DNA from: Mageeibacillus sp. UBA3708
Lineage (GTDB): Bacteria > Bacillota > Clostridia > Saccharofermentanales > Saccharofermentanaceae
Assembly: GCA_002371375.1 (NCBI GenBank)
Contig: DFIB01000234.1
Span: 1-21,885 of the forward strand
Length of the DNA stretch: 21,885 nucleotides
Direction of reading: 5' to 3'
Shown: piece by piece, positions 2,894 to 20,846 of the stretch
Layout: the number at the start of each line of letters is the position of its first letter
How positions within the stretch are numbered: position 1 is the first letter of the stretch
Notes under the pieces: model-generated
What the model saw: the letters and a program-made list of their open reading frames with translations, nothing else
Database searches by the model: none
What the model was told of the DNA's origin: nothing
Position numbers and translations under genes: made by a program

Positions 2894-3115
2894 TTATTCA
2901 ACCTCAACCATCTCTGCATCAGCTTTGCGCAGCGACAGCTCATATCCTCTTACCGTAACCTCTACCGGGTCACCGAGAGGCGCAACCTTGCGGACATAGA
3001 TCTCAACGCCTTTTGTGATGCCCATGTCCATAATCCTGCGCTTAACGGCACCTTCGCCGTGCAGCTTTACAACCTTACAGGTCTGCTTTACCTTCATGTC
3101 TCTTAATGTCTTCAT
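2894..3115 (-). CDS. feoA: FeoA domain protein
   Basis: This 73-aa protein is a single SH3-like FeoA domain, which works with FeoB in Fe(II) uptake in the cytoplasm. Typical features are the central KRRIMDMGITKGVEI segment, the PLGDP turn and a final strand starting EVTVRGYELSLRK. AGGAGG precedes the ATG by about 5 bases. It lies 19 bases after the other feoA-like gene and 24 bases before feoB, so the three are co-transcribed. It matches the classic FeoA pattern better than its upstream paralogue. Confidence 0.94.
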   Translation of the reverse strand: MKTLRDMKVKQTCKVVKLHGEGAVKRRIMDMGITKGVEIYVRKVAPLGDPVEVTVRGYELSLRKADAEMVEVE

Positions 3116-9604: not shown

Positions 9605-10807
9605 CTATGAACCGTAATACTCCCCCACAAGGCTCCTTAATCCGAGAGCCTTCATGTCCTCATAGCTTACGCGGAACCGCCCCTTCCCGTGCGTTCCGCT
9701 CACAAGATACCTCACGCAATCCTGCGCGTAATGATCGATCACCTTCAGGCTCCTGTCGGTGTTGATCACCGGGAAATACCACTTGCTCCATGTCAGCTCA
9801 TTGTCGCTCATCTCATCAGCCGAGTGCTCAAAAAGCTTGCTGTTGAATATCCTGATGAATGCAGAAGCTCCTCTTACCGGGAGCTCCCCCTTTCGGGCTG
9901 TCCAGCGCATCAAAGCACGCATCTTGCGGCGCATCTTTGCCTTGATCTTGAGGACAGATGCCGGAGCGATATCGATCACACCGGCGCGGTAGCAGAAGCC
10001 AAGGAACACCCAGCCTTCACCGGGAGTACTGTAAGACTCCTTGTCCGGATTGACCGTAAGCCCCCGTGAGGCAAGATACTCCCTGACATACGAAGCATGT
10101 CTGCGTACCTCCTCTTCAGTCTTTCCGAGGATCAATATGTCATCCGAATACCTGGCATAAGGTATGCCCCGCTCATAAAAATACCTGTCCAATCCGCGCA
10201 GATACAGATTGGCAAAAAACGAAGCCTGAGGGGTGCCTGCCATGATCCCTTTGTTCTCGGTAATTACGGTATCGCCGTCTATTACGCGTTCCTCTTCCAG
10301 GAGATCTCTCAGGAAAGCATAAAGCACCGGATCGTCACTCATCACATGTTCCAGTTCGGGGATAAGTTCCGCTACAGGAATTGAATTAAAGTAATTGCTT
10401 ATATCGACCTTGTAGGAATACATACGGTCCACGCCTTCGAGGCCCGTCAGATAGCGCAACGCATCTTTGACTGTCCTCCCCGGTCTGAAGGAATACAGAT
10501 TCGGACAGAACAGATGATCGTACCTCCGGAGAAGCAAATGCGTCATGAGCTTCAGGACGATATTCTCGTCATGGGGATAAGTGTATACCGTCCTCTTCTT
10601 GGCGGATGACATCTTGCTGATAACAGACTTGCGCGGAATAGGAAACGGAACGCCGCTATTTATGTTCCTGCAAACATCCGCATAACGCCCTTCGTCGATA
10701 AAACTCCTCAGAACTTTAATAAATCGTTTGGTGCAGCTAAGCGAAGACTTGTATTCGCAAAATCTCTCCCAGCTTGCGGGGCTTGCAAGTTCATCGATCA
10801 ATGACAT
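9605..10807 (-). CDS. Reverse transcriptase of uncertain class
   Basis: A 400-aa RNA-directed DNA polymerase. RT motifs are seen in order: KKRTVYTYPHDENIVLKL (70-87), YSFRPGR (105-111), catalytic SYKVDISNYFN with Asp135, KGIMAGTPQASFFANLYL (186-203), the active site YSDD (220-223), GLTVNPDKE (249-257) and WVFLGF (266-271). A basic thumb-like and C-terminal domain follows, ending ALGLRSLVGEYYG. It lacks the endonuclease domain of many group II intron proteins, the retron NAXXH and VTG signatures, and the motif 4 SQ of DGR RTs. GGTGGAG lies just before the ATG. A structured inverted-repeat segment ends 13 bases upstream, suggesting an ncRNA template or partner as in retrons or defence-associated RTs. 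The class is open. Confidence 0.9.
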   Translation of the reverse strand: MSLIDELASPASWERFCEYKSSLSCTKRFIKVLRSFIDEGRYADVCRNINSGVPFPIPRKSVISKMSSAKKRTVYTYPHDENIVLKLMTHLLLRRYDHLFCPNLYSFRPGRTVKDALRYLTGLEGVDRMYSYKVDISNYFNSIPVAELIPELEHVMSDDPVLYAFLRDLLEEERVIDGDTVITENKGIMAGTPQASFFANLYLRGLDRYFYERGIPYARYSDDILILGKTEEEVRRHASYVREYLASRGLTVNPDKESYSTPGEGWVFLGFCYRAGVIDIAPASVLKIKAKMRRKMRALMRWTARKGELPVRGASAFIRIFNSKLFEHSADEMSDNELTWSKWYFPVINTDRSLKVIDHYAQDCVRYLVSGTHGKGRFRVSYEDMKALGLRSLVGEYYGS

Positions 10808-10820
10808 TTCTCCACCATAT

Positions 10821-10993
10821 AAAAACAGAAAGAGGAATCATTAAATTCCGTATATATACGGAATATACCAGACCGTACATGAACCTGCTGCCTGCGAAGC
10901 GTTTATAACGGTTCATGCCTGATCCGCCACAGGCGCCACGAAAGGGCATCCTCTTTCTGTTTTTGACTTGTATTGCAGGCTTATTAGCCTGAC
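10821..10993 (-). ncRNA. Candidate structured RNA partner of the reverse transcriptase
   Basis: On the minus strand AAAAACAGAAAGAGGA-type and TCCTCTTTCTGTTTTT-type arms (10964-10949 and 10836-10821) form a perfect 16-bp inverted repeat enclosing 112 nt. Inside are a UGCC/GGCA-closed stem with a CGCC-UGU-GGCG hairpin, an 8-bp stem CATGAACC/GGTTCATG, and a perfect 18-nt palindrome TTCCGTATATATACGGAA (10846-10863). A further hairpin, CAGGCT-AATA-AGCCTG (10976-10991), lies at the predicted 5' end. The layout (promoter, long closing stem, stem-loops, RT gene) is that of a retron msr-msd or of a DRT ncRNA. The branching AGC/UAGC expected just after the first arm in retrons is not seen. Confidence 0.65.
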
Positions 10994-10999
10994 AGGACA

Positions 11000-11027
11000 A
11001 TTATACCATGTCAGATCACTCTGACAG
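11000..11027 (-). promoter_or_regulatory. Promoter of the structured RNA and reverse transcriptase
   Basis: An extended -10, TGG plus TATAAT (11008-11000), is preceded after 16 bases by CTGTCA (11027-11022), a 4/6 match to the -35. It overlaps the stop codon of the YcxB-like gene. Transcription should begin near 10993, at the base of the first hairpin of the RNA. Confidence 0.75.
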
Positions 11028-11934: not shown

Positions 11935-12864
11935 TCAGGCAACGCTGTCAAGTGCAACATCGCCGCTGACCGTGTCTACACTTACCAAGGGCATTCCCTT
12001 GATGTTTGAAGGAAGTGAGATATCGCCTGATGTTGTGTCAACGTCGAACTCGTGCTCACCTGCTACTGTTCCCTTAACGTCGCCGGATGTAGTGGAGATG
12101 TCGATATTGTCTGCATTGATCGCAGTAACGGTAACTTCGCCGCTGACCGTTGATACTTTTGTTGTGCCGGCCGTTACATTTGTGAGAGTTACATCGCCTG
12201 ATGTAGTATCGATGTCAACCGTTCCGCTTACGGAAGTTCCGCTGAGTGATACCTCTCCGCTTATCGTATTGAAATCCACTCCGGAACCGCTTACATTAGC
12301 AGCCGTGATGTTTCCGCTTGTTGTATTCACATTGACACCGCTTACCATCTTGCAGAGTGCCGAGACATCGCCGCTCACCGTGCTTATCACCGTACCGTCG
12401 AAGCTGTAGTCCCCGGGAACATTAACATCGCCGCTCACCGTGCTGACATTAAGAGACCCGTATTCACCGGCGGGGATATAGACTGTTGTAACGATCTCCT
12501 CAGTGCTGGTATTCCACCAGTTGCCGATATTGATCCTCAGCCACCAGGGTGTATTATCCTCATCCTTATAAACGATCTTCAGCGTATCTCCGGATACATC
12601 GATCTTGTGCTTATAATTGTCATTGTCATAGTACTCGATCTTCACCTGTCCGTCTGCTGAGGGCTTGAACACTACATCTGCAGAGACCTCTGACACATCG
12701 ATGTTGCTGAATTTGTCTGTTACGACCGTCTCCTGCTTTGTGTACTTGCCTCCGCCGAGTCCGCCCTTGCCGGCTGCCGTGATCGCTCCGACCACTGTAA
12801 GTCCTATGCCTGTTACCACCAGAATGATCGCCGTGATCAATACTATCTTTGCTGCCTTGCTCAT
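11935..12864 (-). CDS. DUF4097 repeat protein, membrane-anchored
   Basis: A 309-aa protein with one N-terminal membrane helix (about 7-30) and a Gly-rich linker, then an extracellular DUF4097-type beta-helix. Nine copies of a (V/I)STVSGDV-like motif occur about every 20 residues from about 138 to the end, for example VSTVSGDVNV, ISTVSGDVSA, VDTTSGDISL. The family (LiaG, YvlB relatives) is linked to envelope stress, though its exact role is unclear. GGAGG in the last codons of the upstream DUF1700 gene lies 8 bases before the ATG. It follows PadR and DUF1700 genes, the standard Firmicutes arrangement. Confidence 0.9.
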   Translation of the reverse strand: MSKAAKIVLITAIILVVTGIGLTVVGAITAAGKGGLGGGKYTKQETVVTDKFSNIDVSEVSADVVFKPSADGQVKIEYYDNDNYKHKIDVSGDTLKIVYKDEDNTPWWLRINIGNWWNTSTEEIVTTVYIPAGEYGSLNVSTVSGDVNVPGDYSFDGTVISTVSGDVSALCKMVSGVNVNTTSGNITAANVSGSGVDFNTISGEVSLSGTSVSGTVDIDTTSGDVTLTNVTAGTTKVSTVSGEVTVTAINADNIDISTTSGDVKGTVAGEHEFDVDTTSGDISLPSNIKGMPLVSVDTVSGDVALDSVA

Positions 12865-12867
12865 ATC

Positions 12868-13479
12868 TTAAGCCTCCTTATTCTTTCTGCTTATTATCTT
12901 TCCCTTGATCCATTTACTGAACTTCCCGACAAGCTCTATCATCCACACCGTCAATGCCTTGGCCGGGAAGAACAGGAGCATTGCAAGTCCCATTGCGAAG
13001 ACCGCTACACCCATCTGCATGACTATTGCCGTGCCTCCGCCCATAATCAGTGTCGTGATCGAAGCAACCAGTGTGACGATTCCCGCAAATCCGAGTGCTG
13101 CAACGATTATGAAGAACGCGATCACCAGAACTGCAAGTACGATCACAAATGTAAGTGCCAGGATACCTGCCGTAAGCATCAGAGGGAACCAGAGCGGGAA
13201 CCCCAGTACCAGCAGTACTATCTCCCAGGCCTTGAACGACTTCTTCGGCTTGGCTTTGGCCTGTGCCTTCATGAGCTTGGGAAGCGGCATATCCATCATG
13301 ATCTGATTGGCTATCTCATCCGGTGTGCCGATCGCCGCAACTGCCTGATCCTCAGTCAGTCCCTCCTCCATCCTGTCGCTTATCGCTTCCTCATAAAACT
13401 CCAGAGCCTTATTAATGTCTTCTTCGCTCAAGCCCTTGAGCTTCTCTCTGACTGCCTGCAAAAAATCGTTCCTGTTCAT
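12868..13479 (-). CDS. DUF1700 membrane protein
   Basis: A 203-aa protein. The N-terminal 65 residues form the helical DUF1700 domain (NRNDFLQAVREKLKGLSEEDINKALEFYEE type, with AAIGTPDEIANQI). After a Lys-rich linker there are about three to four hydrophobic helices (about 84-172) and a basic tail. It is a predicted inner-membrane partner of PadR/DUF4097 systems; the role is not known. The ATG at 13479 overlaps the padR stop by four bases (ATGA) and has AGGTGG upstream, which rules out the longer ORF. Confidence 0.9.
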   Translation of the reverse strand: MNRNDFLQAVREKLKGLSEEDINKALEFYEEAISDRMEEGLTEDQAVAAIGTPDEIANQIMMDMPLPKLMKAQAKAKPKKSFKAWEIVLLVLGFPLWFPLMLTAGILALTFVIVLAVLVIAFFIIVAALGFAGIVTLVASITTLIMGGGTAIVMQMGVAVFAMGLAMLLFFPAKALTVWMIELVGKFSKWIKGKIISRKNKEA

Positions 13480-13793
13480 GCTGCATCCACCTCTCTGACT
13501 ACATAATCGTAAATCGCCATCACTTCTTTCCATTCCTCCGCGAAAGCCGTGAGCCTCTGCCGTCCAACATCCGTTATGTGGTAGTACTTCCTCAGTCTTC
13601 CGTTGTGTTCCACCGAGTTAACGGTCAGGCATCCGGCCTCCTCAAGCCGTCTCAGGATCGGATAAAGAGTGGATTCCGATATTGTTAGATACGGCTTGAT
13701 ATCTTTGATGATCTTGTAGCCATACGAATCTTCAGTCTTAATGGCCGCAAGAACCAGGATATCGAGCAAACCTCTTTTGATCTGTGCATCCAT
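13476..13793 (-). CDS. PadR family transcriptional regulator
   Basis: A 105-aa winged-helix regulator of the PadR-s1 type. It shows the family pattern: KRGLLDILVLAAIKTEDSYG, SESTLYPILRRLEEAG (recognition helix) and LRKYYHITDVGRQRL (wing). It has no long C-terminal dimerisation domain, typical of short PadRs that sense cell-wall or drug stress. It heads the operon with DUF1700, DUF4097 and the 81-aa gene and overlaps the second by four bases. AGGAGGT precedes the ATG. It probably represses its own promoter through the 17-bp repeats upstream. Confidence 0.93.
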   Translation of the reverse strand: MDAQIKRGLLDILVLAAIKTEDSYGYKIIKDIKPYLTISESTLYPILRRLEEAGCLTVNSVEHNGRLRKYYHITDVGRQRLTAFAEEWKEVMAIYDYVVREVDAA

Positions 13794-14150: not shown

Positions 14151-14226
14151 TGGAGCGGGATACGAGGCTCGAACTCGCGACTTTCAGCTTGGGAAGCTAA
14201 CACTCTACCAACTGAGTTAATCCCGC
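14151..14226 (-). tRNA. tRNA-Gly (anticodon CCC)
   Basis: A complete 76-nt cloverleaf including encoded CCA. The acceptor GCGGGAT/ATCCCGC, D stem ACTC/GAGT, anticodon stem TTAGC/GCTGA and T stem GCGAG/CTCGT all pair. The anticodon loop is TTCCCAA, so the anticodon is CCC, reading GGG glycine codons. Confidence 0.96.
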
Positions 14227-20771: not shown

Positions 20772-20846
20772 TGGAGGTACCACCCAGATTTGAACTGGGG
20801 AATGGAAGTTTTGCAGACTTCTGCCTTACCACTTGGCTATGGTACC
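20772..20846 (-). tRNA. tRNA-Cys (anticodon GCA)
   Basis: A complete 75-nt cloverleaf with encoded CCA. The acceptor GGTACCA/TGGTACC, D stem GCC/GGC, anticodon stem GAAGT/ACTTC and T stem CCCAG/CTGGG pair. The anticodon loop CTGCAAA gives anticodon GCA. Confidence 0.96.

Follow-up and report, generated by a model that had tools for sequence, protein, structure and literature searches.

The uncharacterised reverse transcriptase group UG26 is associated with the RT-5 noncoding RNA and may form a Class-2-DRT-like system with it

The reverse transcriptase (RT) group UG26 and the RNA family RT-5, two catalogued orphans, are joined here into one system. The window, which is the whole stretch of 21,885 bases that was analysed, has a UG26 RT gene at 9605-10807 (-) and an RT-5 RNA that ends 13 bases upstream of the RT start codon. 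The tie between RNA and RT, the separate encoding of the RNA, a pseudoknot and a partner protein are new here. By analogy with better known systems, it seems probable that the RT and the RNA form a Class-2-DRT-like complex that makes RNA-templated, probably protein-primed, repetitive cDNA as an antiphage-type function. No link between UG26 and RT-5 was found in the literature searched, most subscription papers lying outside that search. Judged by title, a cold-seep virus paper (PMC10504277) is the only one among those listed for UG26 that deals with this RT group.

The RT is a protein of 400 aa with a Pfam RVT_1 domain and a predicted model with a pLDDT of 92.3. The initial annotation had reported an RT with a YSDD motif, and this motif is indeed the active site, at residues 220-223. 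The protein matches the PADLOC model RT_UG26 over its full length (7.5e-171, 566 bits), and the runner-up model scores 112 bits. The UG26 profile also matches all seven further relatives scanned. By these matches the window RT is a member of UG26, an "unknown group" of RTs that is uncharacterised but catalogued in PADLOC. The C-terminal tail contains the motif SLVxxYY, and its tyrosines Y397 and Y398 reach a conservation of at least 90% in two alignments, one of 66 and one of 63 sequences.

NAXXH and VTG are signature motifs of retron RTs. Neither was found when the translation of the window RT was read by eye, in agreement with the initial annotation, and the best retron model scores 43 bits against a cut-off of 235. 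The group II maturase model is also below its cut-off (104.6 vs 300 bits), the UG26 match exceeds the group II RTs widely, and there is no group II intron RNA among the three Rfam matches of the window. The RT and its RNA are, by sequence, neither a retron nor a group II intron. The window RT is also not of the UG17, UG28 or UG2 type, since its 566 bits for UG26 compare with 85.5 bits for UG17 (DRT10), 86.8 bits for Drt9 and 48.7 bits for the PADLOC Drt2 model; the NCBIfam Drt2 model gives 50.4 bits with a cut-off of 390. Drt9 and UG17 are the nearest DRTs among the PADLOC groups with a shown mechanism, although UG27, UG4 and the Cas1-fused RT score higher. The profile ranking favours a grouping with Class 2 (UG2, UG3, UG17, UG28), yet the Cas1-fused RT is similar at 91.5 bits. 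When PDB chains are scored with the UG26 profile, DRT9 (1e-19), Drt2 (1e-12) and Drt3a (6e-10) rank above AbiK, UG15 and DRT1, and the TERT chains give a weak match (1e-5). The earlier proposal of an RT that looks ncRNA-dependent, lies outside the retrons and has a DRT2/DRT9-type layout holds.

The RNA was identified by a match to Rfam RF03026 (RT-5) at 10833-10938, with 86.9 bits against a gathering cut-off of 45.7. This family reportedly entered Rfam from a structured-RNA survey of 2017. Our own extended covariance model, R1, matches 10815-10968 with 135 bits; it was trained on 47 RNAs, among them the window RNA. The strand at 10815-10968 has a folding energy of -57 kcal/mol (z -5.34), which is better than 200 of 200 dinucleotide shuffles. 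The unit at 10821-10964 (-) is 144 nt long and bounded by a perfect 16-bp inverted repeat that encloses 112 nt, as described initially together with the 13 bases before the ATG. Among the eight inverted repeats reported for the window (at least 14 nt long and at most 200 nt apart) it is the sole perfect one. The suggestion of a less-described class does not hold in that the RNA is already listed in Rfam and the RT group in PADLOC. The window also has two tRNA genes, at 14154-14226 (-) and 20775-20846 (-).

The repeat forms the outer stem P1, with its 5' strand at 10949-10964 (-) and its 3' strand at 10821-10836 (-), the latter with five consecutive U at its end, just upstream of the RT start. 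Changes on both sides occur in five of the six alignable P1 pairs. Within P1, a P2/P2b stem capped by P2a lies at 10870-10925 (-): P2 pairs 10922-10925 with 10870-10873, P2b pairs 10913-10918 with 10877-10882, and P2a pairs 10898-10900 with 10887-10889. It is followed by the hairpin P3 at 10845-10864 (-). An 8-bp pseudoknot joins GCCUGUGG at 10927-10934 (-) to UCGCAGGC at 10890-10897 (-) in the hairpin loop of P2a. Three inner stem-loops had been proposed, and they do appear in the minimum-energy fold of this one sequence. The alignment keeps only two of them (P2/P2b with P2a, and P3), and the first is replaced by the pseudoknot, which had gone unnoticed initially.

Comparative analysis supports this structure. 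For 47 of 95 RNAs, picked for diversity and aligned with MAFFT (window RNA included), the cells of P1, P2, P2b, P2a, P3 and the pseudoknot are 93.1% paired, compared to 79.3% in shuffles. Pairing falls to 40-50% when the partners are slid by one to three columns; since the pairs were derived from the same alignment, this control is biased towards the structure and the double changes carry more weight. Changes on both sides are seen in 25 of 31 pairs vs 19.9 in shuffles, and compensatory changes had been named initially as a check of the stems. The pseudoknot is the best-kept helix, with 98.1% of cells paired and double changes in six of its eight pairs. P3 is the weakest (78.5% paired), partly because the alignment is ragged there. 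In a separate, simple search for the P1 stem, 86 of 95 RNAs exceed a score of 20, as do 28 of 475 controls whose upstream sequence was shuffled; the RNAs below 20 are those of loci L019, L052, L102, L103, L105, L109, L120, L124 and L135. The Rfam model has 104 positions and lacks P1, and its displayed structure line lacks the pseudoknot. The compensatory changes thus support, at the level of the alignment, two elements that are new here: the outer stem, which the Rfam model does not cover, and the pseudoknot of 8 bp.

The RNA and the RT occur together. The RNA set consists of 95 RF03026 matches in whole genomes, two of which (L062 and L117) score under the Rfam cut-off, plus eight RNAs that adjoin UG26 genes of named records. 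Three loci (L021, L022, L023) duplicate others (L136, L144, L142), which leaves 100 distinct RNA loci. Among 59 genomes, 18 have both RNA and RT, one has the RNA alone (G002, RT not found), one has the RT alone (G056) and 39 have neither (Fisher 5e-13, kinship ignored). The G056 RT has 42% identity, with no RF03026 match in its genome and none by R1 beside the gene. In the 12 named UG26 loci the whole RNA lies upstream in nine and is cut in L029; the RNA match in L031 (38% identity) is not significant (E=0.33), and the RNA was not found beside the L026 gene (57% identity). A conserved associated ncRNA, one of the features of Class 2 UG/DRT systems, is present, with G056 and L026 as exceptions, and the upstream repeat noted at the outset is kept in most relatives. 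Two genomes, G542 and G1058, have two RT-5 copies each (L107, L118, L127, L146), every one with an RT within 80 nt.

In 70 of the 100 distinct loci the UG26 RT starts at most 300 nt downstream of the RNA. It starts at 627-1290 nt in three, is not in the available stretch in 25, and in two (L007 and L094) the sequence ends within 220 nt. We call RT-distant the 27 of 95 whole-genome RNA loci that lack an RT in the first 300 nt downstream; L132, with its RT at 627 nt, is a 28th such locus. Sixteen RT-distant loci were examined at length, and in 14 of them the same strand carries the RT 1.2-9.5 kb further downstream. The other two are G034, with its RT on another contig, and G002. In the two loci scanned for intervening genes, these include genes for glycoside hydrolase 43, HD-domain, LytTR and DUF7010 proteins. 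The close relatives G443, G454 and G115 have RNA and RT adjacent. All RT-distant loci are within the genus of the window, so they are not 27 independent events.

The RNA seems to have its own promoter. In the window an extended -10 promoter-like box, TGGTATAAT, lies at 11000-11008 (-), and its TATAAT (11000-11005) is 35 nt upstream of the P1 stem. This distance predicts a transcription start near 10993, about 29 nt upstream of where the stem begins and not at the stem's 5' edge as first proposed. Each of the 27 RT-distant loci has a perfect TATAAT upstream of its RNA, compared with 25 of the 68 other whole-genome loci, which include L132 and the two contig-edge loci. In 26 of the 27 RT-distant RNAs it stands 23-28 nt before the Rfam start. 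Since the RNA can lie kilobases from the RT with its own TATAAT, RT-5 is probably a free small RNA that acts in trans, and the initial view of an RNA tied in cis to its RT is not kept.

Within the window's genus, 52 of the 85 genomes have the system. The presence of the RNA is patchy, with 15 genomes out of 391 in the class and 31 out of 397 in one family, and a search of 398 genomes of the phylum gave two RF03026 matches, both already in the set. Close relatives of the RT were not found in phages (best among the matches listed, 31.6% identity) or plasmids (best among the matches listed, 28.7%, all under 60%). The exact RNA pattern was found in no viral contig, and an RT scan of viral contigs gave one matching stretch and no locus. 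With no close phage or plasmid relative, the system looks chromosomal. In G018 (L070) an element with a Tn916-type integrase lies between identical 34-nt repeats (3080-3113 and 10341-10374), each a copy of the RNA gene's 3' end, a layout that would fit use of the RT-5 RNA gene as an attachment site, like a tRNA gene.

A protein family without a Pfam or NCBIfam name is encoded directly upstream of the RNA in 43 of the 100 distinct loci. It occurs in Clostridia (for example L025:379-900), and many members end in GWWNTRxYVxxRxxxALG; the domain is tentatively restriction-nuclease-like. The gene order in L132 (G1115) is RNA, partner protein, RT. The partner was not found in the window or in its genome, which is 86% complete. 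Ten further window proteins (one with a desaturase-model match) and the neighbouring gene show no other defence family, and the window proteins scanned include metabolic and transport genes. A LiaG-family gene lies upstream in the window within 11935-13793 (-), a region with two more genes that we take to be a PadR-like regulator and a DUF1700-like gene; similar-looking genes also stand next to the RNA and the RT of G019.

These observations suggest the following mechanism. The UG26 RT and the separate RT-5 RNA of about 145 nt would form a ribonucleoprotein, with the RNA able to act in trans. The RNA itself is a closed scaffold of three elements: P1, P2 with an apical hairpin whose loop pairs with the 5' part in a pseudoknot, and P3. 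The RT would take a short unpaired stretch of this RNA as template, over and over, and so give repetitive cDNA, by analogy with DRT9, DRT10 and DRT3a, for which the accessible parts of PMC12483538, PMC13174585 and PMC12632851 describe RNA-templated repeat cDNA. Priming would probably be from a tyrosine of the RT's own conserved SLVxxYY tail. Repetitive cDNA synthesis may then be part of an antiphage response, and the small partner protein of many relatives is a candidate for an effector or a cofactor.

The best candidate for the copied stretch is the junction where P3 gives way to the 3' strand of P1. According to the accessible part of PMC12632851, DRT10 copies an A-B-A' stretch directly after a stem-loop. 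The junction holds direct repeats, and the candidate A-B-A' template of the window is AUUUAAUG-AUU at 10836-10846 (-), with a predicted cDNA unit of CATTAAAT. Other RNAs have GAUUUAAC-GAUUU, GUUUUAAA-GUUUU, CUGUUAAAUU-CUGUU and GCUUUAAU-GCUUU. The mean repeat in 68 unique junctions is 3.38 vs 3.17 when the first five bases are exchanged (p 0.01), and repeats of at least 4 make up 43% vs 33% after this exchange (p 0.035). With redundancy removed at 85% (62 RNAs), 75% (45) and 65% identity (30), the p values of the mean are 0.03, 0.08 and 0.03, and those of the share of repeats of at least 4 are not significant (0.08, 0.28 and 0.23). By junction type among 45 RNAs, p is 0.02 for UUUAA (22 RNAs) and 0.05 for the rest (8), and the signal is absent in the 15 UUCAA-type RNAs (p 0.43). 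Plain shuffles give a z of 5.3 for the junction and 5.4 for the conserved P2a loop, so conservation alone can yield such values. The A and A' ends touch the P3 and P1 helices, and fraying would be needed. The junction is therefore put forward as a candidate template with weak to modest support.

Other templates were considered and dropped. The internal loop J2b/2a has no repeat signal (z -0.1) and, by eye, long inserts in some RNAs. The conserved GGC..GGC around the P2a loop was rejected because this loop pairs in the pseudoknot and, by eye, the repeat is lost where GGC changes to GAC. An endless ORF like that of DRT2 is not indicated by the Rfam-matched unit, which shows no frame constraint: lengths modulo 3 divide 36/36/23 among the 95, and 16 of 95 stay open when repeated.

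The same data were weighed for readings other than templated repeat synthesis in defence. The RNA could be a scaffold only, with the RT making untemplated DNA like the Class 1 DRT/Abi RTs; this would suit a junction template that is statistically not firm, a J2b/2a loop free of A-B-A' signal, and the presence of AbiK, UG15 and DRT1 within profile reach of UG26. However, UG26 scores DRT9, Drt2 and Drt3a above these three, and the RNA has a conserved, partly single-stranded junction after a stem as in DRT10, so that a pure scaffold is distinctly unlikely. Somewhat easier to credit, though still rather unlikely, is a vertically inherited cell function such as stress response or DNA repair with the same RT-RNA chemistry. 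The metabolic and transport genes of the window, the frequency of the system in the genus and the lack of close phage or plasmid relatives among the matches listed would agree with it. The patchy presence of the RNA in the class and in the one family argues against such a function, as does the fact that, in the accessible part of PMC12632851, the experimentally characterised UG enzymes are all implicated in phage defence.

Two readings tie the RNA closely to the neighbouring gene. Retron-like mechanics, in which the RNA would be an msr-msd copied once into RNA-linked msDNA, had been raised at first because of the layout, and the locus does have inverted repeats at both RNA ends and the RNA before the RT. 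The missing retron motifs, the low score of the best retron model and the 14 loci with an RNA 1.2-9.5 kb from the RT make this highly improbable. The position of the RNA 13 nt before the window RT, and within 300 nt of an RT in most distinct loci, could also suggest a cis-regulatory leader of the RT mRNA. We find this scarcely credible, since the RT-distant RNAs keep a TATAAT with no RT within 300 nt downstream and the RT was traced kilobases away in those same 14 loci. The Class-2-DRT-like, RNA-templated complex remains the reading that we prefer.

A close comparison for this complex is DRT10, which consists of a UG17 RT, an ncRNA and a SLATT protein. The window RT is near UG17 by profile, the ncRNAs are similar in size (137 nt in DRT10, about 145 nt in RT-5) and share the upstream position, and a stem-loop precedes the template of DRT10 and the candidate template of RT-5. 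A third gene is sometimes present in UG26 loci, and the order in L132 is the same as ncRNA-SLATT-RT in DRT10. The differences are that no SLATT gene was recognised among the window proteins scanned, that the UG26 partner is tentatively restriction-nuclease-like and often absent, that RT-5 can lie kilobases from its RT, and that its A-B-A' is weaker. RT-5 also has the 8-bp pseudoknot, and the accessible text of PMC12632851 uses the word "pseudoknot" once, for telomerase. DRT9 (UG28 RT and ncRNA) has a longer RT (499 aa vs 400 aa, 18% identity) and a long U-tract template with no conserved counterpart in RT-5. Its priming peptide, in the accessible part of PMC12483538, ends in SLNYDYE with priming tyrosines, which the near-invariant Tyr397 and Tyr398 of the UG26 tail recall. 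From the GsI-IIC group II intron RT and G2L4 the window differs in having no intron RNA and a maturase score under the cut-off.

Telomerase, with TERT and a separately encoded template RNA, offers a further likeness if the hypothesis holds: the RNA gene would be apart from the RT gene, with a pseudoknot and a template bounded on its 5' side by a stem. There is no sign of a linear DNA end as substrate for UG26, and the likeness is one of resemblance only. A fully telomerase-like machine is a tentative and doubtful extension; it would have a free-standing, promoter-bearing template RNA acting in trans, a pseudoknot, a stem-bounded A-B-A' and often a nuclease-like partner that responds to repetitive cDNA. 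The RNA gene can be inherited separately from the RT gene. UG26 and RT-5 are a natural test case for the reach of RNA-templated repeat synthesis among bacterial RTs, and for how template RNAs became unlinked from their RTs, as in telomerase.
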